A DNA stretch of 32,156 nt, taken from assembly GCA_902764875.1 (NCBI GenBank), contig CACWXP010000029.1:1-32156 (forward strand), read 5' to 3'. The translations under genes and the position numbers were made by a program. The DNA is from an uncultured Eubacteriales bacterium (GTDB lineage Bacteria; Bacillota; Clostridia; Christensenellales; Aristaeellaceae). The notes under the pieces were generated by a model. That model saw only the letters and a program-made list of their open reading frames with translations. It was not told the DNA's origin and made no database searches. The number at the start of each line of letters is the position of its first letter. Within the stretch, counting starts at the first letter, position 1. Positions 101 through 19,124 of this stretch are shown here, piece after piece.

Positions 101-1960
101 TTACTTCAAGAGTTTTTTCAACATCTGGTTCAGTTCCTTTGGGCGGTAGTGAAGACGATCCAAAACCATGCCAGTAAACTGTGTCAGAGCATCTAGCGCT
201 TTGCTGCCTTCATACAGCGCCATATAGTGAACGTCGTGGACATTTACCACACTCATGTTTTTCAGTGTAGAGATCAGATCATCAGTGGTAATGTGGGTTC
301 CCTGGTCGTTAAGCTTAACTTCCAGAAGGCGATACACAAGGAGGGCGGTATAGCAGATCAGGAAGTGTGCCTTAATTCGGTCGGGGGTCCGGTGGTTAAC
401 AGGACGTCCGGAGAAGTTGGTTTTCATGATCCGAAAACAATCTTCTATCTGGTAGCGTTTTTTGGAGATGGCAAGGACTTGCTTTGCATCGTCATCCAGA
501 TTGGTCGCGACAGCATAGAAACCATCGTATTTCTCTTCTTCAGCGATTTTTTCCTCGTCAATAACAAAGGAAACCGAAGCTTTTTCTCCAGACTTGGTTT
601 GAGCAATGCGCTTCATGAAACGTTTGACGTCATTGGGTCCCTTTTTTATTTCTTCGGGATCATTGGTTACGAGTAGTTTCCTGGCTCGCTCGATTTGACG
701 ATTCCTGACAGCACGTTGGTATTCCATCATCTTGCGGGAAAAAGTAACAATCAGGCGCTGCTTCAGGATACCGGATGCCTTTACGCACTTGACCTTTCCG
801 TTCTTGCATACCTTCTCCTCGTACAAACCAAGATCCACAGCATGGTCAGCTGGGATGACCATGTAAGCAAAATCATTGTAAAGCGGCAAATTCTCCTCTT
901 TGAAACGGTCAAACTCCTTCATCTGAGCGATTGATACAGGAGAATCATCGGATAAAAGTTTGTAATCTCCACCTTCAAAGATCGCTTCTTTAAGGACATC
1001 ACTCAATTTTTTAATGGACTGTGTGACAATAAAGGCTCTGCCACCAAGGCTGTTGAACTTGCGGATGTTGTAGGAACCAAGGCCAGCGTCAGCACAGTAG
1101 ACAAACTGGGCACCTTCCAGCATTTTGACGATTTCTCTCTCCAGCGGAACGGCAGTAAGTTGCTCGCTCGTGTTTCCGGGATGCAGACACATACTGACCG
1201 GTATTCCTCTTTGGTCCATGAACAGTCCCATCTCGACAATCGGATTCGGACGATGTTCCTTGCTGTATCCAAACTGCCGTAATCCTGTCAGAATCTCCCC
1301 TGTAACAGGATCAACATATTCATCGTCGGCTTTTTCTGTTTCAAAATAGAAATTAGTGCAGTCGTAGTACATGACAGAAGTTTGCCGGGGAACAACATTG
1401 CTGCTTTGCTTGTAAAGCCAGGTCAGATAATCGTTATAATGCTCCTCCAACACATCCATGAACCGCATGATATGCTGGTAGGCAAAATCAGGCTTCTCAT
1501 AATAGGAATCCAGCCGATCCCAGGTACCATACTTGGAACGAGGATCAAGAATCCTGGCGTATGTCAGGAACCGATTGATGTCATAGCAGTTAAAGGTCAT
1601 CTTCCGGTCAGCGGTGATCTTGGTAAAGAAATCTTTCAGATTCAACTGCCCCATAATGTGCTGCAGGAAAAAGTAACCGGTATTAACGGCGGTAGATTGG
1701 GAAGCTTCCCGGTCTGTCTTTTTGACTCGCTCATTAAAATCACAGGTAAGTTCAATCTGTAGCCGTCCGGACCGGTACTCGGCATTCATCTTGTCGATTT
1801 CAGCCTTAACATATGCAATCGGATCGTCTGTGATTTTCAGTAATTCTGAATGCTTTCCAAAATTCTTGACATTTCGCGTGGTTGTTTTCTTTCCGTTACG
1901 GAATCCCTGTTGCGCATAATACGTCGGATCGCTGAGTCTCTTATCATAGTAAAGCTTCAA
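101..1960 (-). CDS. IS1634-family DDE transposase
   Basis: This is a transposase of 619 aa that would cut and rejoin the ends of the element. The DDE triad is visible: Asp200 in MYYDCTNFYFE, Asp291 in YCADAGLGSYN, and Glu506 in RYQIEDCFRIMK, where Tyr503 and Lys513 give the Y-x2-E-x6-K signature of IS4-type enzymes. The N-terminal part resembles the usual IS1634 start (YYDKRLSD). The frame is open over its full length, which is normal for the family, so the enzyme could be active. The start codon is TTG, preceded by an AGGGCGG-like site. It is transcribed alone, between hairpins on both sides. Several antisense frames inside it are shadows. Confidence 0.93.
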   Translation of the reverse strand: MKLYYDKRLSDPTYYAQQGFRNGKKTTTRNVKNFGKHSELLKITDDPIAYVKAEIDKMNAEYRSGRLQIELTCDFNERVKKTDREASQSTAVNTGYFFLQHIMGQLNLKDFFTKITADRKMTFNCYDINRFLTYARILDPRSKYGTWDRLDSYYEKPDFAYQHIMRFMDVLEEHYNDYLTWLYKQSSNVVPRQTSVMYYDCTNFYFETEKADDEYVDPVTGEILTGLRQFGYSKEHRPNPIVEMGLFMDQRGIPVSMCLHPGNTSEQLTAVPLEREIVKMLEGAQFVYCADAGLGSYNIRKFNSLGGRAFIVTQSIKKLSDVLKEAIFEGGDYKLLSDDSPVSIAQMKEFDRFKEENLPLYNDFAYMVIPADHAVDLGLYEEKVCKNGKVKCVKASGILKQRLIVTFSRKMMEYQRAVRNRQIERARKLLVTNDPEEIKKGPNDVKRFMKRIAQTKSGEKASVSFVIDEEKIAEEEKYDGFYAVATNLDDDAKQVLAISKKRYQIEDCFRIMKTNFSGRPVNHRTPDRIKAHFLICYTALLVYRLLEVKLNDQGTHITTDDLISTLKNMSVVNVHDVHYMALYEGSKALDALTQFTGMVLDRLHYRPKELNQMLKKLLK

Positions 1961-2211: not shown

Positions 2212-2302
2212 GGAGAGTTGGCTGAGTGGTCTAAGGCGCACGACTGGAAATCGTGTGTGGGGTGATACCTCACCTAGGGTTCAAATCCCTAACTCTCCGC
2301 CA
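2212..2302 (+). tRNA. tRNA-Ser (GGA anticodon)
   Basis: A 91-nt class II tRNA. The 7-bp acceptor stem pairs GGAGAGT (2212-2218) with ACTCTCC (2292-2298), followed by discriminator G and an encoded CCA (2300-2302). The anticodon stem CACGA/TCGTG (2239-2243, 2251-2255) holds anticodon GGA at 2246-2248, reading UCC and UCU. A long variable arm (about 2256-2274) and a T-loop with GGTTCAAATCC are present. Serine identity follows from the anticodon and the long variable arm. Confidence 0.96.
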
Positions 2303-16018: not shown

Positions 16019-16837
16019 TTATTCCGCCGCTTCCGTACAAAGATCGTACAGCGACGGTAAAATCCTCATTCCGGTAATATGCAGCTCCAGCCCGAAAAAC
16101 TCCTTCAGATGGTCGATGCCGTCCGCAATGCGCGAGGTCAGCAGCGCCGTCATTTGGTCCTGGGTCATTTCAATTTCGTCCGTGTCCCACAGGCGGCAGC
16201 AAAGCACAAAGATCCGCCCGTCTGTATTCACTGTCGGCAGAATATGCACGCCCTGCACGTCACCGCCGAAGGACTGCCGCAGCGTCAGTTCCAGCCGGTC
16301 CTGCCCGTAGTGCCACCGGCCTTCCAGTTTGTCCTGTTCCGTGGTTGCGGGCTGCGCCAGTTCCATGATCATGCAGGTTTCTTCCGGATCCATCCGGCTG
16401 CGAAGCAGATGCATGTTGCGAACCAGGTCGTCTTTGTTTTCAACCCTGCCCGTCAGCAGCTTCCGGAAAAACTCATGCCGACATTCCATCAGCATGTCGA
16501 TTTCCGTAAATCCGTCGTTGGAAAAATCGGCGTGTATCCGGTTCAGCAGGATGTTCAGCTCGTTCAGATACCGCAGGATCTCGTCCTCTGTCTCTCCCGC
16601 CTCAAAGATCGGAACGTTCGGATAGTTAGCCTGCAGATAGGGGTAAATCTTCTTTGCTTCTTCCGGAACCACGGCGATGCTGATTCCGTCCGCGTGATGT
16701 TTGGCCAGGCTATCCAGCATGCCTTCATAGTCGTGCCGGATGTGCGGCTTTTTGAAGCCGTGGCGTTCCCAATTTTCGATCTGGTCAAAAGCGTTCAGGA
16801 TCTCTTCCCGGTCGGAAACAAGCAGAAGTTTGTACAT
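16019..16837 (-). CDS. YesN-like pseudo-receiver protein without a DNA-binding domain
   Basis: A protein of 272 aa. The first 110 residues look like a CheY-type receiver (YKLLLVSDREEILNAF at the start), but the position of the phosphorylated Asp is replaced by a hydrophobic stretch (GISIAVVPEEAKK), and the usual Lys near the end is not evident. The rest resembles the middle region of YesN-type regulators, and the protein stops where an AraC-type helix-turn-helix would begin. It probably acts through protein contacts and not by DNA binding. The start is ATG at 16837, 10 nt after GGAGG; an in-frame TTG two codons upstream is too close to that site. It is first in a pair with the SPFH gene. Confidence 0.7.
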   Translation of the reverse strand: MYKLLLVSDREEILNAFDQIENWERHGFKKPHIRHDYEGMLDSLAKHHADGISIAVVPEEAKKIYPYLQANYPNVPIFEAGETEDEILRYLNELNILLNRIHADFSNDGFTEIDMLMECRHEFFRKLLTGRVENKDDLVRNMHLLRSRMDPEETCMIMELAQPATTEQDKLEGRWHYGQDRLELTLRQSFGGDVQGVHILPTVNTDGRIFVLCCRLWDTDEIEMTQDQMTALLTSRIADGIDHLKEFFGLELHITGMRILPSLYDLCTEAAE

Positions 16838-16878
16838 CCCCAAAAAACCTCCATCGGCGGTTTTCCTCGCCGCATGAT

Positions 16879-16932: not shown

Positions 16933-17679
16933 TCAGGCCGTTTTTTTCCGGATCAGCAATCCCGGTACTTCGGTGATCAGCAGCACCAGGAAAACCATGA
17001 TCAGCGCATAGGCATAAATCTCCGCGTATTCGCTGAAATAGGCGCTGGAATAAACGGCTTTCCCGAGGCTGTCTTTCGTCTGAACCAGGTATTCCGCCGA
17101 AACCACGACCTTCAGTCCCATGCCCGCCGCATTCACAAACGCCTGTTTCAGGTAGCCGGAAATCAGCGGCAGGTAAACATGCAATGCCACCTGAAAGCCA
17201 AATCCCCCGTTCATCCGGTATACGTCGATCAGTTCCGGCTCCAGGCTCCGGCATCCTTCATAAACCGCCTCGCTGAAAACGGGGATCAGAATCAGGCCGG
17301 CCGCCGTCACAGGAACGGATCGGTACTCCAGCATGGACATGATCAGAATGACCATCACGATCATCGGCATCGACCGGATCAGGATCATCATCGGCCGGAA
17401 AAAGGAATGGATCCGTCCGCTGATGCCTTCCGCCAGGCCGATCAAAATACCGATCAAAGCCGAAATCAGCAGGGCTTCCAGCACATGAATCAGCGTTGTT
17501 CCGATTTTCAGGTATGTGTTCCCGTCACCGAGCAGCCGAAACAGGGCCTGTCCGATTTCGGCCAGGCCCGGAAAAACAACGCGGTTTCCCTTCAGCGCAC
17601 CCCCCGCCTGAAGAACCGCCCCGATCAGGACGATTCCCAGGCAGAAAGCCGTTGTTGATCCTTTTTGTTTCTTCTGCAT
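16933..17679 (-). CDS. ABC transporter permease, SsuC/TauC/ThiX type
   Basis: A membrane protein of 248 aa with about six hydrophobic segments and a single binding-protein-dependent transport domain. The cytoplasmic EAA-like loop is visible around 165-185 (LHVYLPLISGYLKQAFVNAAGMG), as in permeases for sulfonates, taurine, nitrate or thiamine precursors. It follows the substrate-binding protein after 8 bp. The partner ATPase normally lies beside such permeases, but none does here, so the ATPase must be encoded elsewhere or be shared. The substrate cannot be told from the sequence. Confidence 0.9.
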   Translation of the reverse strand: MQKKQKGSTTAFCLGIVLIGAVLQAGGALKGNRVVFPGLAEIGQALFRLLGDGNTYLKIGTTLIHVLEALLISALIGILIGLAEGISGRIHSFFRPMMILIRSMPMIVMVILIMSMLEYRSVPVTAAGLILIPVFSEAVYEGCRSLEPELIDVYRMNGGFGFQVALHVYLPLISGYLKQAFVNAAGMGLKVVVSAEYLVQTKDSLGKAVYSSAYFSEYAEIYAYALIMVFLVLLITEVPGLLIRKKTA

Positions 17680-17687
17680 CTGATTTA

Positions 17688-18602
17688 TTAATCGGCGCTG
17701 AAATAGAAGTCGTCCGCCGGCAGTTGCCCGCCGAACTGTTTCAGGTCAATGCCAGCCGTGGTTTCAATCTGCTCCCGGGCCTCGCCCGCCGTCATCCAGC
17801 GGATGCTGCATCCGGGCAGCGCTTTCAGCGCCACCGGCTCCTTCGGCAGGATCTCCATCGCCACTACGTTTTTGGCAACCGCCGCCGGATCCTTTTCGCA
17901 CATTTCCACGGAAGCCTGAATCTTTTCGAGTCCTTCTTTTATCAGTTCCGGGTTCTCCGCTGCCGTTTTCTCTCGTACGAACAGGCCCGCCTGGGTGAAT
18001 CCGTCAAAGCCGGTCACCTCTTTGTACAGGTCGTTCACCGGCACAGAAGTAATCGTTTCGTCCTTCATTTTTGCCGCGGTCACGGCCGGTTCGGCGGTCA
18101 TCACAAAGGTGTCCGCGTCGCCGCTCAGCAGCAGCGCCTGGGTCTCCGCAGCCCCGGCCAGGTATTCAACCTCCGAGGGCACGATGCCCTTCTTCTCCAG
18201 CACGTACAGCGCGATGGAAGCATTGATTGTATTTTCACCGAACAGCACCAGCTTTTTGCCGCTGATCATTTCCGGTGTGAAGCCTTCGGCCTTGGAGGCG
18301 AAAACCAGGTTCCCCCAGGTCACCACCGCCGCCAGCCGGTAGGTGGATTTGCCGGCCTCGAACAGTTTTGCTCCCGCGTTGATGGGTGCAATAATGAAGT
18401 CCGCTTCCGCGCTGCCGAAGGCTTCAGCGATGGTGTCGGCGTTAATCGTCTTCACTGCGTCGTTGTTTTCCGCCCAAACGCCGGCAACTGCCATCGCTGG
18501 GGCGCCGTTCGGGGCCACGATCAGCATTCCGCCCTCCGCGCCAGCCATCGCCGCCGTCAGGGTCATCACCAGGGCAAACAGAATCGCAATCCATTTTTTC
18601 AT
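17688..18602 (-). CDS. ABC transporter substrate-binding protein (NMT1/SsuA-like)
   Basis: An exported binding protein of 304 aa with a signal peptide cut near AMA-GAEGG (about residue 20). The pattern is of the NMT1/THI5 and SsuA class: LIVAPNGAPAMAVAG near the start, ADFIIAPINAGAKLF, then LVLFGENTINASIALYVL and DTFVMTAEPAV. Such proteins bind sulfonates, nitrate, thiamine precursors or small aromatic compounds; the ligand here is unknown. No lipobox is present. It overlaps the TM1266-type regulator by 4 bp (ATGA) and is followed by the permease, so the three form one operon behind a structured leader. Confidence 0.88.
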   Translation of the reverse strand: MKKWIAILFALVMTLTAAMAGAEGGMLIVAPNGAPAMAVAGVWAENNDAVKTINADTIAEAFGSAEADFIIAPINAGAKLFEAGKSTYRLAAVVTWGNLVFASKAEGFTPEMISGKKLVLFGENTINASIALYVLEKKGIVPSEVEYLAGAAETQALLLSGDADTFVMTAEPAVTAAKMKDETITSVPVNDLYKEVTGFDGFTQAGLFVREKTAAENPELIKEGLEKIQASVEMCEKDPAAVAKNVVAMEILPKEPVALKALPGCSIRWMTAGEAREQIETTAGIDLKQFGGQLPADDFYFSAD

Positions 18603-18868
18603 TTTCTTTCTTCTCCTTTGCTTTTTGAGGGTGCAAGCGCGCTTTTCACGACGATTCCCGGGAGATTCCCAAGCTTTCCGGTCAGCGCGCCGATCTCGTC
18701 GTTGGTTCCTTCCGTAATCAGCCCGATCACCGCGGATTCATCCTCATGGTTCGGCACGCCGATCCGTCCCCGGATCAGCTTTCCGAATCGTGAAAGAATC
18801 CGGTTGACTTCTTCGATGCAGTCTTTACGGCTCACGATAATGCCGATGAATCCGAGTCTTTTTTCCAT
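18599..18868 (-). CDS. TM1266-type iron-only hydrogenase system putative regulator
   Basis: A small protein of 89 aa with the ferredoxin-like/ACT-type pattern of the TM1266 family: KRLGFIGIIVSRKD at the start, GRIGVPNHEDESAVIGLITEG in the middle, and the conserved TDEIGALTGKLGxLPGI-like segment (here NDEIGALTGKLGNLPG) near the end. The family usually sits with the [FeFe]-hydrogenase maturation genes hydEFG, and its biochemical role is unproven. Here none of those genes is present; it heads an ABC transporter operon by a 4-bp overlap. A GGAGGAAAG ribosome site precedes the ATG. It may sense the ligand or metal state of the transporter, which is inference only. Confidence 0.86.
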   Translation of the reverse strand: MEKRLGFIGIIVSRKDCIEEVNRILSRFGKLIRGRIGVPNHEDESAVIGLITEGTNDEIGALTGKLGNLPGIVVKSALAPSKSKGEERK

Positions 18869-18922
18869 TGAGCTTTCCTCCGAAACTTTTTTTCGGTCAA
18901 ATCAGTTTTCCGTCCGTGCTTG

Positions 18923-18963
18923 CAAAAATGCACGGCACAGGCCATAAAGCCTATCCCGTGCAT
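18923..18963 (-). terminator. Intrinsic terminator in the leader of the TM1266-ABC operon
   Basis: On the minus strand ATGCACGG (complement of 18956-18963) pairs with CCGTGCAT (18928-18935), with an inner AGGC/GCCT stem, and is followed by five U (18923-18927). It lies 55 nt before the start codon of the first gene, the position of a transcription attenuator. Confidence 0.82.
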
Positions 18964-19091
18964 CTTCTGACAATCATATTGATTCGCCCCCTTCCCGTCT
19001 TGCGCTTTGATGCCTCTCCGCGTTCAATCAGGTTCGCTGCGTACCGTCCCTCTGCCGCACCTTTCCGGCCTGGGGTCGGGATGGGGTACGC
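18923..19091 (-). promoter_or_regulatory. Candidate riboswitch or attenuator leader, class unidentified
   Basis: The transcript starts near 19090 and runs about 220 nt before the first start codon. It opens with a 5' stem of 7 perfect pairs (GCGTACC at 19085-19091 with GGTACGC at 19039-19045), which continues inward as TCCC/GGGA. A middle region at about 18965-19038 carries GAACCTGATT, GGCATCA, CGGGAAGGGGGCGAA and GTCAGAAGATGC. An intrinsic terminator follows. The order of some blocks recalls cobalamin riboswitches (GGGAAGG ... GTCAGAAGA near the 3' end), and GAACCTGAT recalls the thiamine class, but neither consensus is complete. GCATC (19009-19013) could pair with the terminator's 5' arm (18960-18964) as an antiterminator. 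Confidence 0.6.
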
Positions 19092-19095
19092 TTGT

Positions 19096-19124
19096 ATTGT
19101 ATCATTGCCGCTGTTTTATTTCAA
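19096..19124 (-). promoter_or_regulatory. Promoter of the TM1266-ABC operon
   Basis: On the minus strand TTGAAA (19119-19124) and TACAAT (19096-19101) are 17 bp apart, both 5/6 matches. The -35 box lies in the last codons of the S41 protease gene, and transcription would begin almost exactly at the 5' stem of the structured leader. Confidence 0.78.

Follow-up and report, generated by a model that had tools for sequence, protein, structure and literature searches.

Introduction

The NMT1 motif, a xanthine riboswitch that is present in Rfam, precedes genes for NMT1-domain binding proteins, whereas the leader described here shows no match to any Rfam riboswitch up to E = 10. uORF candidates that carry terminators, most notably the fthC motif, are already known, as are riboswitches with uORFs. 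As far as its description in PMC11109978 goes, the fthC motif (uORFC-39-1) of Streptococcus resembles the present leader in having a hairpin, a purine-rich Shine-Dalgarno-like stretch, the AUG of a uORF, a later hairpin with an in-frame stop and an intrinsic terminator. It belongs to other genes and to another taxon, however, and in the present leader the ribosome site follows two hairpins whose purine loops are conserved, the stop lies within the terminator itself and UAG is favoured. The ilvB-II uORF attenuator likewise combines a micro-ORF with an intrinsic terminator and leaves the decision to the ribosome, but according to the portion of the same article that deals with it, it has an antiterminator and Ile, Leu and Val codons, whereas in the present leaders regulatory codons are not shared and no partner for antitermination stands out.

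The B12 riboswitches of M. tuberculosis metE and ppe2 also join a structured sensor RNA to a translated uORF; in the relevant part of that report (PMC11260477), no intrinsic terminator was found for metE, and ppe2 works by termination-reinitiation. Their aptamer is a known one, whereas the present RNA contains no known aptamer and its uORF extends into a terminator. The NAD+-I riboswitch, as presented in the corresponding part of PMC10043782, contains two similar tandem aptamers, the second of them at the ribosome site; it is associated with other genes, whereas here Rfam provides no match and the ribosome site is that of a micro-ORF. What is new in the present leader is that a conserved domain of two hairpins, a ribosome site adjoining it and a frame lying inside the terminator and usually ending with UAG occur together.

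Organization of the leader and its operon

The window, that is, the whole stretch of 32,156 nucleotides that was analysed, corresponds to positions 1-32,156 of contig CACWXP010000029.1 (assembly GCA_902764875.1, forward strand) from a member of the Aristaeellaceae (Clostridia). The leader and its operon consist of the following features.

19096-19124, minus strand: promoter TTGAAA-17-TACAAT, with TG before the -10 element (motif scan)
19039-19091, minus strand: hairpin 1 including its closing stem P1, 19091-19085 with 19045-19039 (sequence and own-leader pairing test)
19048-19080, minus strand: core of hairpin 1, comprising P1b, a 3x3 purine-rich loop, P2, a purine-rich loop, P3 and a variable loop (covariation)
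18994-19032, minus strand: hairpin 2, comprising CC/GG, a mismatch, P4, a GA/AA loop, P5, a purine loop and P6 (covariation)
18987-18993, minus strand: Shine-Dalgarno sequence AAGGGGG, immediately 3' of hairpin 2 (sequence; relatives)
18951-18977, minus strand: micro-ORF MIVRRCTG*, with its UAG stop (18953-18951) within the terminator 5' arm (sequence)
18924-18964, minus strand: intrinsic terminator, hairpin 18964-18928 and U run 18928-18924 (sequence and fold)
18599-18868, minus strand: TM1266-family gene (TIGR03959, PF21699), first gene of the operon (family-model match)
17688-18602, minus strand: NMT1/SsuA-like substrate-binding protein (domain match and predicted structure)
16933-17679, minus strand: ABC permease, BPD_transp_1 (domain match)

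A preliminary description of this DNA had proposed a minus-strand promoter, a 7-bp stem, a terminator with five U residues and, behind it, a TM1266-transporter operon, and these elements hold. The TTGAAA-17-TACAAT promoter (19124-19096) was found once, compared with a mean of 0.2 in shuffled sequences, and transcription is expected to start near 19090. The stem pairs GCGTACC with GGTACGC. The terminator hairpin folds at -27.7 kcal/mol and is followed by its U5 run; a simple terminator scan is by itself at chance level (one found, mean of 0.7 in shuffles). Family-model matches identify the TM1266, NMT1-like binding protein and permease genes. As a whole, the 223-nt leader is more stable than its shuffled counterparts (z = -3.38; none of 200 shuffles equally stable). 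The preliminary description contained neither hairpin 2, which is more conserved than hairpin 1, nor the Shine-Dalgarno sequence, nor the micro-ORF running into the terminator (ATG ATT GTC AGA AGA TGC ACG GGA TAG, 18977-18951), and its block GTCAGAAGATGC is part of this micro-ORF.

The TM1266 family model is labelled only as a putative regulator of iron-only hydrogenase systems. The structure model of the binding protein (pLDDT 93.6) is closest to 3hn0, which is named only as an ABC transporter/nitrate transport protein and for which no ligand is named there, and then to many NMT1-fold proteins with PQQ, thiamin or sulfonate ligands. Because the ligands of these relatives are diverse, no ligand is proposed from the binding protein, whose cargo the preliminary description had put forward as the putative ligand of the leader.

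Elsewhere in the window, a 274-residue protein without Pfam or NCBIfam match is encoded 3' of the permease gene (16019-16843, minus strand), and a 619-residue ORF, transposase-like by eye (101-1960, minus strand), lies near a tRNA gene (2212-2299, plus strand).

Conservation and covariation of two hairpins

Two hairpins with internal loops of purines recur in 41 leaders, all of which precede a TM1266-family gene. In alignment A2 (16 rows, made with MAFFT without structure, its ends chosen by eye and its structure written after single-sequence folds), 88.4% of cells are paired, compared with 30.5-45.7% for slid structures, and 11 of the 20 pairs show two-sided changes. RNAalifold, run on a longer 17-row alignment, recovers hairpin 2 unaided with nine pairs; hairpin 1 was not recovered. 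Covariation is also seen in alignment A4, whose 38 rows include a false match (L117), a misplaced hairpin 1 (L113) and a motif identical to that of L115 (L116). Alignment A5 (39 rows) is without these three and without L009, which, its hairpin 1 being poorly aligned, lies outside both A2/R1 and A5/R2.

In A5, 91.7% of cells pair, two-sided changes occur in 15 of 20 pairs and both sides change in 99 cells, against 30.0 in shuffles; as A4 and A5 were fitted to a model, their pair counts are biased towards it, and as the rows of the alignments are related, such counts are not independent. Conservation and covariation of the leader in relatives, on which the preliminary description had made its proposal depend, are nonetheless evident in the covariation score of A5 (0.436, compared with 0.046-0.090 for slid structures). 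The weakest pairs are the outer ones, column pair 1-44 failing in 18 and 70-125 in 14 of the 39 rows. Invariant in all 39 are U76-A121, U77-G120 (always a wobble), G87-C110, C3-G42, A41, A128 and G130. P4 of hairpin 2 is of an AUU/GAU type that includes the invariant U-G pair, and P6 is of a GG/CC type. The loop of hairpin 1 varies, with GNRA in many leaders and UACG in L097 (by eye). Many relatives are also predicted to form an outer P1 helix. In a test of 40 leaders (L113 omitted), the closing helix P1 matches the leader it comes from slightly better than it matches other leaders (mean rank 0.289, with ranks ≤0.05 in 9/40).

The A5 consensus is two separate hairpins. A conserved structured RNA domain ahead of a coherent gene set, as is characteristic of riboswitches, is found here, and the two-hairpin RNA probably serves as aptamer in a riboswitch not described before.

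Association with a TM1266-importer operon

A search of 61 genomes at the DNA level detected portions of the leader in five, one of them the genome of origin. Covariance model R1 matches 17 of the 45 genomes of the genus at E ≤ 0.1, each with the TM1266 operon; two of the 17 have one extra weak match, taken as false. The binding protein is present in 41 of the 45 genomes and the leader in only 17. Eighteen other genomes of the genus have a TM1266 gene of a different lineage and no R1 match, and the leader is likewise absent from four genomes that lack TM1266 and have the binding-protein gene directly behind an S41 gene (L008, L018, L026 and L036). In wider samples, R1 matched eight of 396 genomes of the order at E ≤ 0.01, one of them falsely, and 36 of 300 genomes sampled from the family, which is larger, again with one false (G443/L117), so that the true matches lie in five genera of this sample. 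Among the false model matches are L094, L095, L099 and L117. Model R2 found only the genome of origin among 391 genomes of the class and three others among 299 of the phylum, all three within long reading frames without TM1266 and taken as false; because these large searches score about 10-14 candidates per genome under strict filters, absence in them is weak evidence.

The gene order at the relatives' loci is leader, TM1266, binding protein and permease, preceded by an S41 peptidase gene within the sequence stretch in 28 of 39 motif loci. In two other genera (L198 and L199) the operon is extended by a short ABC ATPase, which occupies the position of the 274-residue protein of the window. R1 matches at E ≤ 0.0012 were obtained for 39 of 80 named TM1266 loci. 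The binding protein lies downstream in 37 of them; in the other two (L146 and L152) the sequence ends soon after TM1266. Four loci outside the 39 also have the binding protein: L172, L173, L176 (R1 E = 0.052) and L178. R2 recovers three of them, L172 (51.8 bits), L176 and L178; L173 looks nearly identical to L178, yet is unmatched. The remaining 37 TM1266 loci, without match to two binding-protein queries, show no R1 match at E ≤ 1, some of the stretches being short (for example, L188). The distribution of the RNA thus follows the TM1266-importer operon and not the TM1266 family as a whole.

As the RNA is found with one operon only, a protein-binding site fits too. The hairpins would then be bound by a protein, for example TM1266, which would repress or activate its own operon via the ribosome site of the micro-ORF. 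Every true match precedes a gene of this TM1266 lineage, a pair of similar hairpins would be well matched to a symmetric protein oligomer, and protein-binding leaders are a common category in the part of PMC11109978 that treats them. We regard this alternative as unlikely, though to be taken seriously: the 37 of 80 TM1266 loci that lack the RNA, some on short stretches, indicate that the family does not need it, and a basic RNA-binding tail on TM1266, considered as a candidate feature, was discarded as weak, since the C-terminal tails (defined by a crude cut) are only slightly more basic with the motif (mean charge 1.8, n = 44) than otherwise (1.3, n = 56). For the putative aptamer, the presence of an importer and of conserved purine loops makes a small molecule our first choice of signal and a protein the second.

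Comparison with known RNA classes

Searched against Rfam 15 at gathering scores, the whole window yields only a tRNA, without any match in the leader; with the threshold relaxed to E = 10, the leader matches no riboswitch and a single unrelated sRNA model (E = 8.1). The sequence blocks previously likened to cobalamin riboswitches correspond to no match with RF00174, RF01482 or RF01689 up to E = 10, and the parallel drawn with the thiamine class fares no better with RF00059 at the same threshold. Short word parallels and the NMT1/THI5-like fold of the binding protein, which includes thiamine-precursor binders, would speak for a diverged cobalamin or TPP riboswitch. Such an origin is very improbable given these results, the absence of any leader match at gathering score in 18 motif-bearing loci (5 + 13, among 40 loci scanned) and a consensus of two separate hairpins. 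Cobalamin, TPP and other known classes were accordingly rejected, with no Rfam support in the window or its relatives. The 40 scanned loci contain three FMN riboswitches and one T-box, all in loci without the motif. Up to E = 10, L096 and L007 match no riboswitch; their best match, a human lncRNA model (E = 0.021; 22.2 of the 45 bits of its gathering score), is taken as chance.

Searches of the open-licence literature, by titles and abstract starts, returned no paper linking TM1266 with a riboswitch and none on this RNA. Its absence from Rfam 15 and from these searches supports the view that the leader RNA is undescribed. Strong covariation, the lack of an Rfam match and a single fixed gene context support the other option of the preliminary description, an undescribed structured leader with an attenuator.

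A micro-ORF that runs into the terminator

The Shine-Dalgarno sequences of the relatives are mostly AAGGRGG-like, and 39 of the 41 tabulated leaders have a suitably placed ATG (a later one was chosen by hand for L029, L096, L106 and L107). An in-frame stop follows within 11 codons in 36 of these 39 (36/41 overall), compared with 14/39 and 7/39 in the other frames. The micro-ORFs are 5-11 codons long, mostly 7-9, and in most leaders the stop falls within the terminator 5' arm or loop (by eye). UAG is the stop in 31 of the 36, UGA in three (L015, L027 and L037) and UAA in two (L031 and L105), whereas UAG accounts for 3 of 127 stops in neighbouring genes of the same loci (TM1266 3/40, binding protein 0/38, permease 0/19, S41 0/30). 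Since UAG is sometimes unpaired in the loop (for example, in L042), hairpin pairing alone cannot explain this bias. The short ORF is absent from five leaders: L023, L038 and L109 read through the terminator, and L133 and L167 have no well-placed ATG. The much diverged L176 again has a UAG-ended short frame, with no clear U tract behind its hairpin (by eye); L172 has none with a good start.

A short ORF overlapping an intrinsic terminator is, at the sequence level, what a leader-peptide attenuator has, and a ligand-free attenuator, in which the micro-ORF senses translation itself, be it through one codon, through release at UAG or through the general supply of ribosomes, and the role of the hairpins is limited to preserving access to the ribosome site or slowing RNA polymerase, has to be considered. 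The frame is maintained and its UAG bias is strong, an early Cys codon occurs in 7 of 17 peptides of the genus (by eye), and there is a precedent in ilvB-II, once a riboswitch candidate, which proved to be a uORF attenuator and to which the fthC motif is similar, according to the sections of PMC11109978 on these motifs. Neither a codon run nor a peptide sequence common across genera was seen by eye in the micro-ORFs, whose peptides differ between genera, so that conserved regulatory codons or an arrest peptide are not apparent. Moreover, the conserved internal loops and the invariant U-G pair (39/39) exceed what a spacer needs, and no clear antiterminator partner emerges (mean rank 0.417). We therefore consider this explanation doubtful, and a little less likely than a protein-binding site.

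The UAG bias (31/36) might also point to a read-through switch, for example with pyrrolysine, in place of terminator masking. This possibility was rejected as highly improbable: none of the 45 genomes of the genus has a pyrrolysyl-tRNA synthetase above cut-off, the weak sub-cut-off matches in 30 of them occurring likewise in most control genomes, and the frame beyond UAG has no common end.

The early Cys codons are those within the first ten codons in L006, L007, L010, L020, L023, L029 and L037. In genus g29, the micro-peptides often have Pro just before UAG. Both patterns may come from the sequence of the terminator arm.

Base pairing between leader segments

Both a terminator and a ribosome site are present, yet no clear base-pair switch links either to the hairpins. 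Pairing of the terminator arm with upstream RNA shows no clear preference for its own leader (the mean rank of 0.417 compares with 0.5 for none), nor does pairing of the Shine-Dalgarno sequence with the 5' leader (mean rank 0.466). Strong own pairing is seen in a few leaders (L009, L101, L102, L105 and L154), and an antiterminator that is weak or confined to single lineages may exist. For the Shine-Dalgarno sequence, ranks below 0.1 occur in 7 of 41 leaders, at no common place by eye, and no conserved anti-Shine-Dalgarno sequence was found in the leaders. The two hairpins are conserved and the terminator arms vary in sequence; these varying arms, together with the lack of own-leader preference, make a classical aptamer-antiterminator switch unlikely as a common rule. 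The lack of arm preference leaves the ribosome site and the micro-ORF as the conserved link between hairpins and terminator.

Proposed regulation through a ribosome

The RNA structure, the succession of Shine-Dalgarno sequence, ATG and short frame, and the overlap of frame and terminator are established as features of the sequences. A ribosome on such a short terminator-overlapping frame can prevent hairpin formation. On these grounds we favour, with a chance slightly better than even, a model in which the two-hairpin RNA, a candidate riboswitch aptamer, would gate access of a ribosome to the micro-ORF, and the ribosome would mask the terminator and turn the operon on. The two hairpins, which lie at the predicted transcript start and run directly up to the Shine-Dalgarno sequence, would decide ribosome loading. 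An initiating ribosome would reach the stop, usually UAG, and cover the terminator hairpin, so that termination would fail and the operon be transcribed; the folded, ligand-bound RNA would keep ribosomes off, allowing the terminator to form and the importer operon to be silenced. That the ligand acts in the off direction is a guess from the feedback logic expected of an importer. The preference for UAG might, speculatively, prolong the dwell of the ribosome on the hairpin.

A stricter form of this model, which we hold tentatively and at somewhat less than an even chance, is that of a new riboswitch class with the micro-ORF as its expression platform, in which the aptamer would admit or exclude one ribosome, and this ribosome, parked at UAG, would itself be the antiterminator of the overlapping terminator. 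It would amount to a three-part relay from ligand to ribosome to RNA polymerase, without a base-pair switch between aptamer and terminator. The 5 of 41 leaders without a short ORF and the five of 36 frames that end in UGA or UAA argue against ribosome gating, as do the lack of a good start in L172, of a clear U tract in L176 and of a conserved anti-Shine-Dalgarno sequence. If true, the proposal would add to the orphan riboswitch candidates one whose gene context is already at hand, namely TM1266 together with an importer of the NMT1 type, and would offer a testable route by which a ribosome couples an aptamer to intrinsic termination and a physiological link for TM1266.

Leaders of other TM1266 genes

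Two further leaders were noticed, neither with an Rfam match. TM1266 genes of Sporomusa and similar genomes (L156, L158, L159 and L170), without binding-protein match, share by eye another common leader, built around CTGCAAGCAAGGGC ... GCCTGCGC ... AGGATGGCGAA, of which L156 has a variant form. Three genomes of the genus carry a paralogous TM1266-binding protein-permease operon (L012, L013 and L014; also L058, L062 and L060) with a different leader, which reads by eye TCCGACCG(C/T)AAAG ... TTCTGAGCGG ..., followed by a terminator. The 5' arm of this terminator, GTCGGA, is complementary to the start of the leader, TCCGAC, a classical antiterminator layout (by eye).
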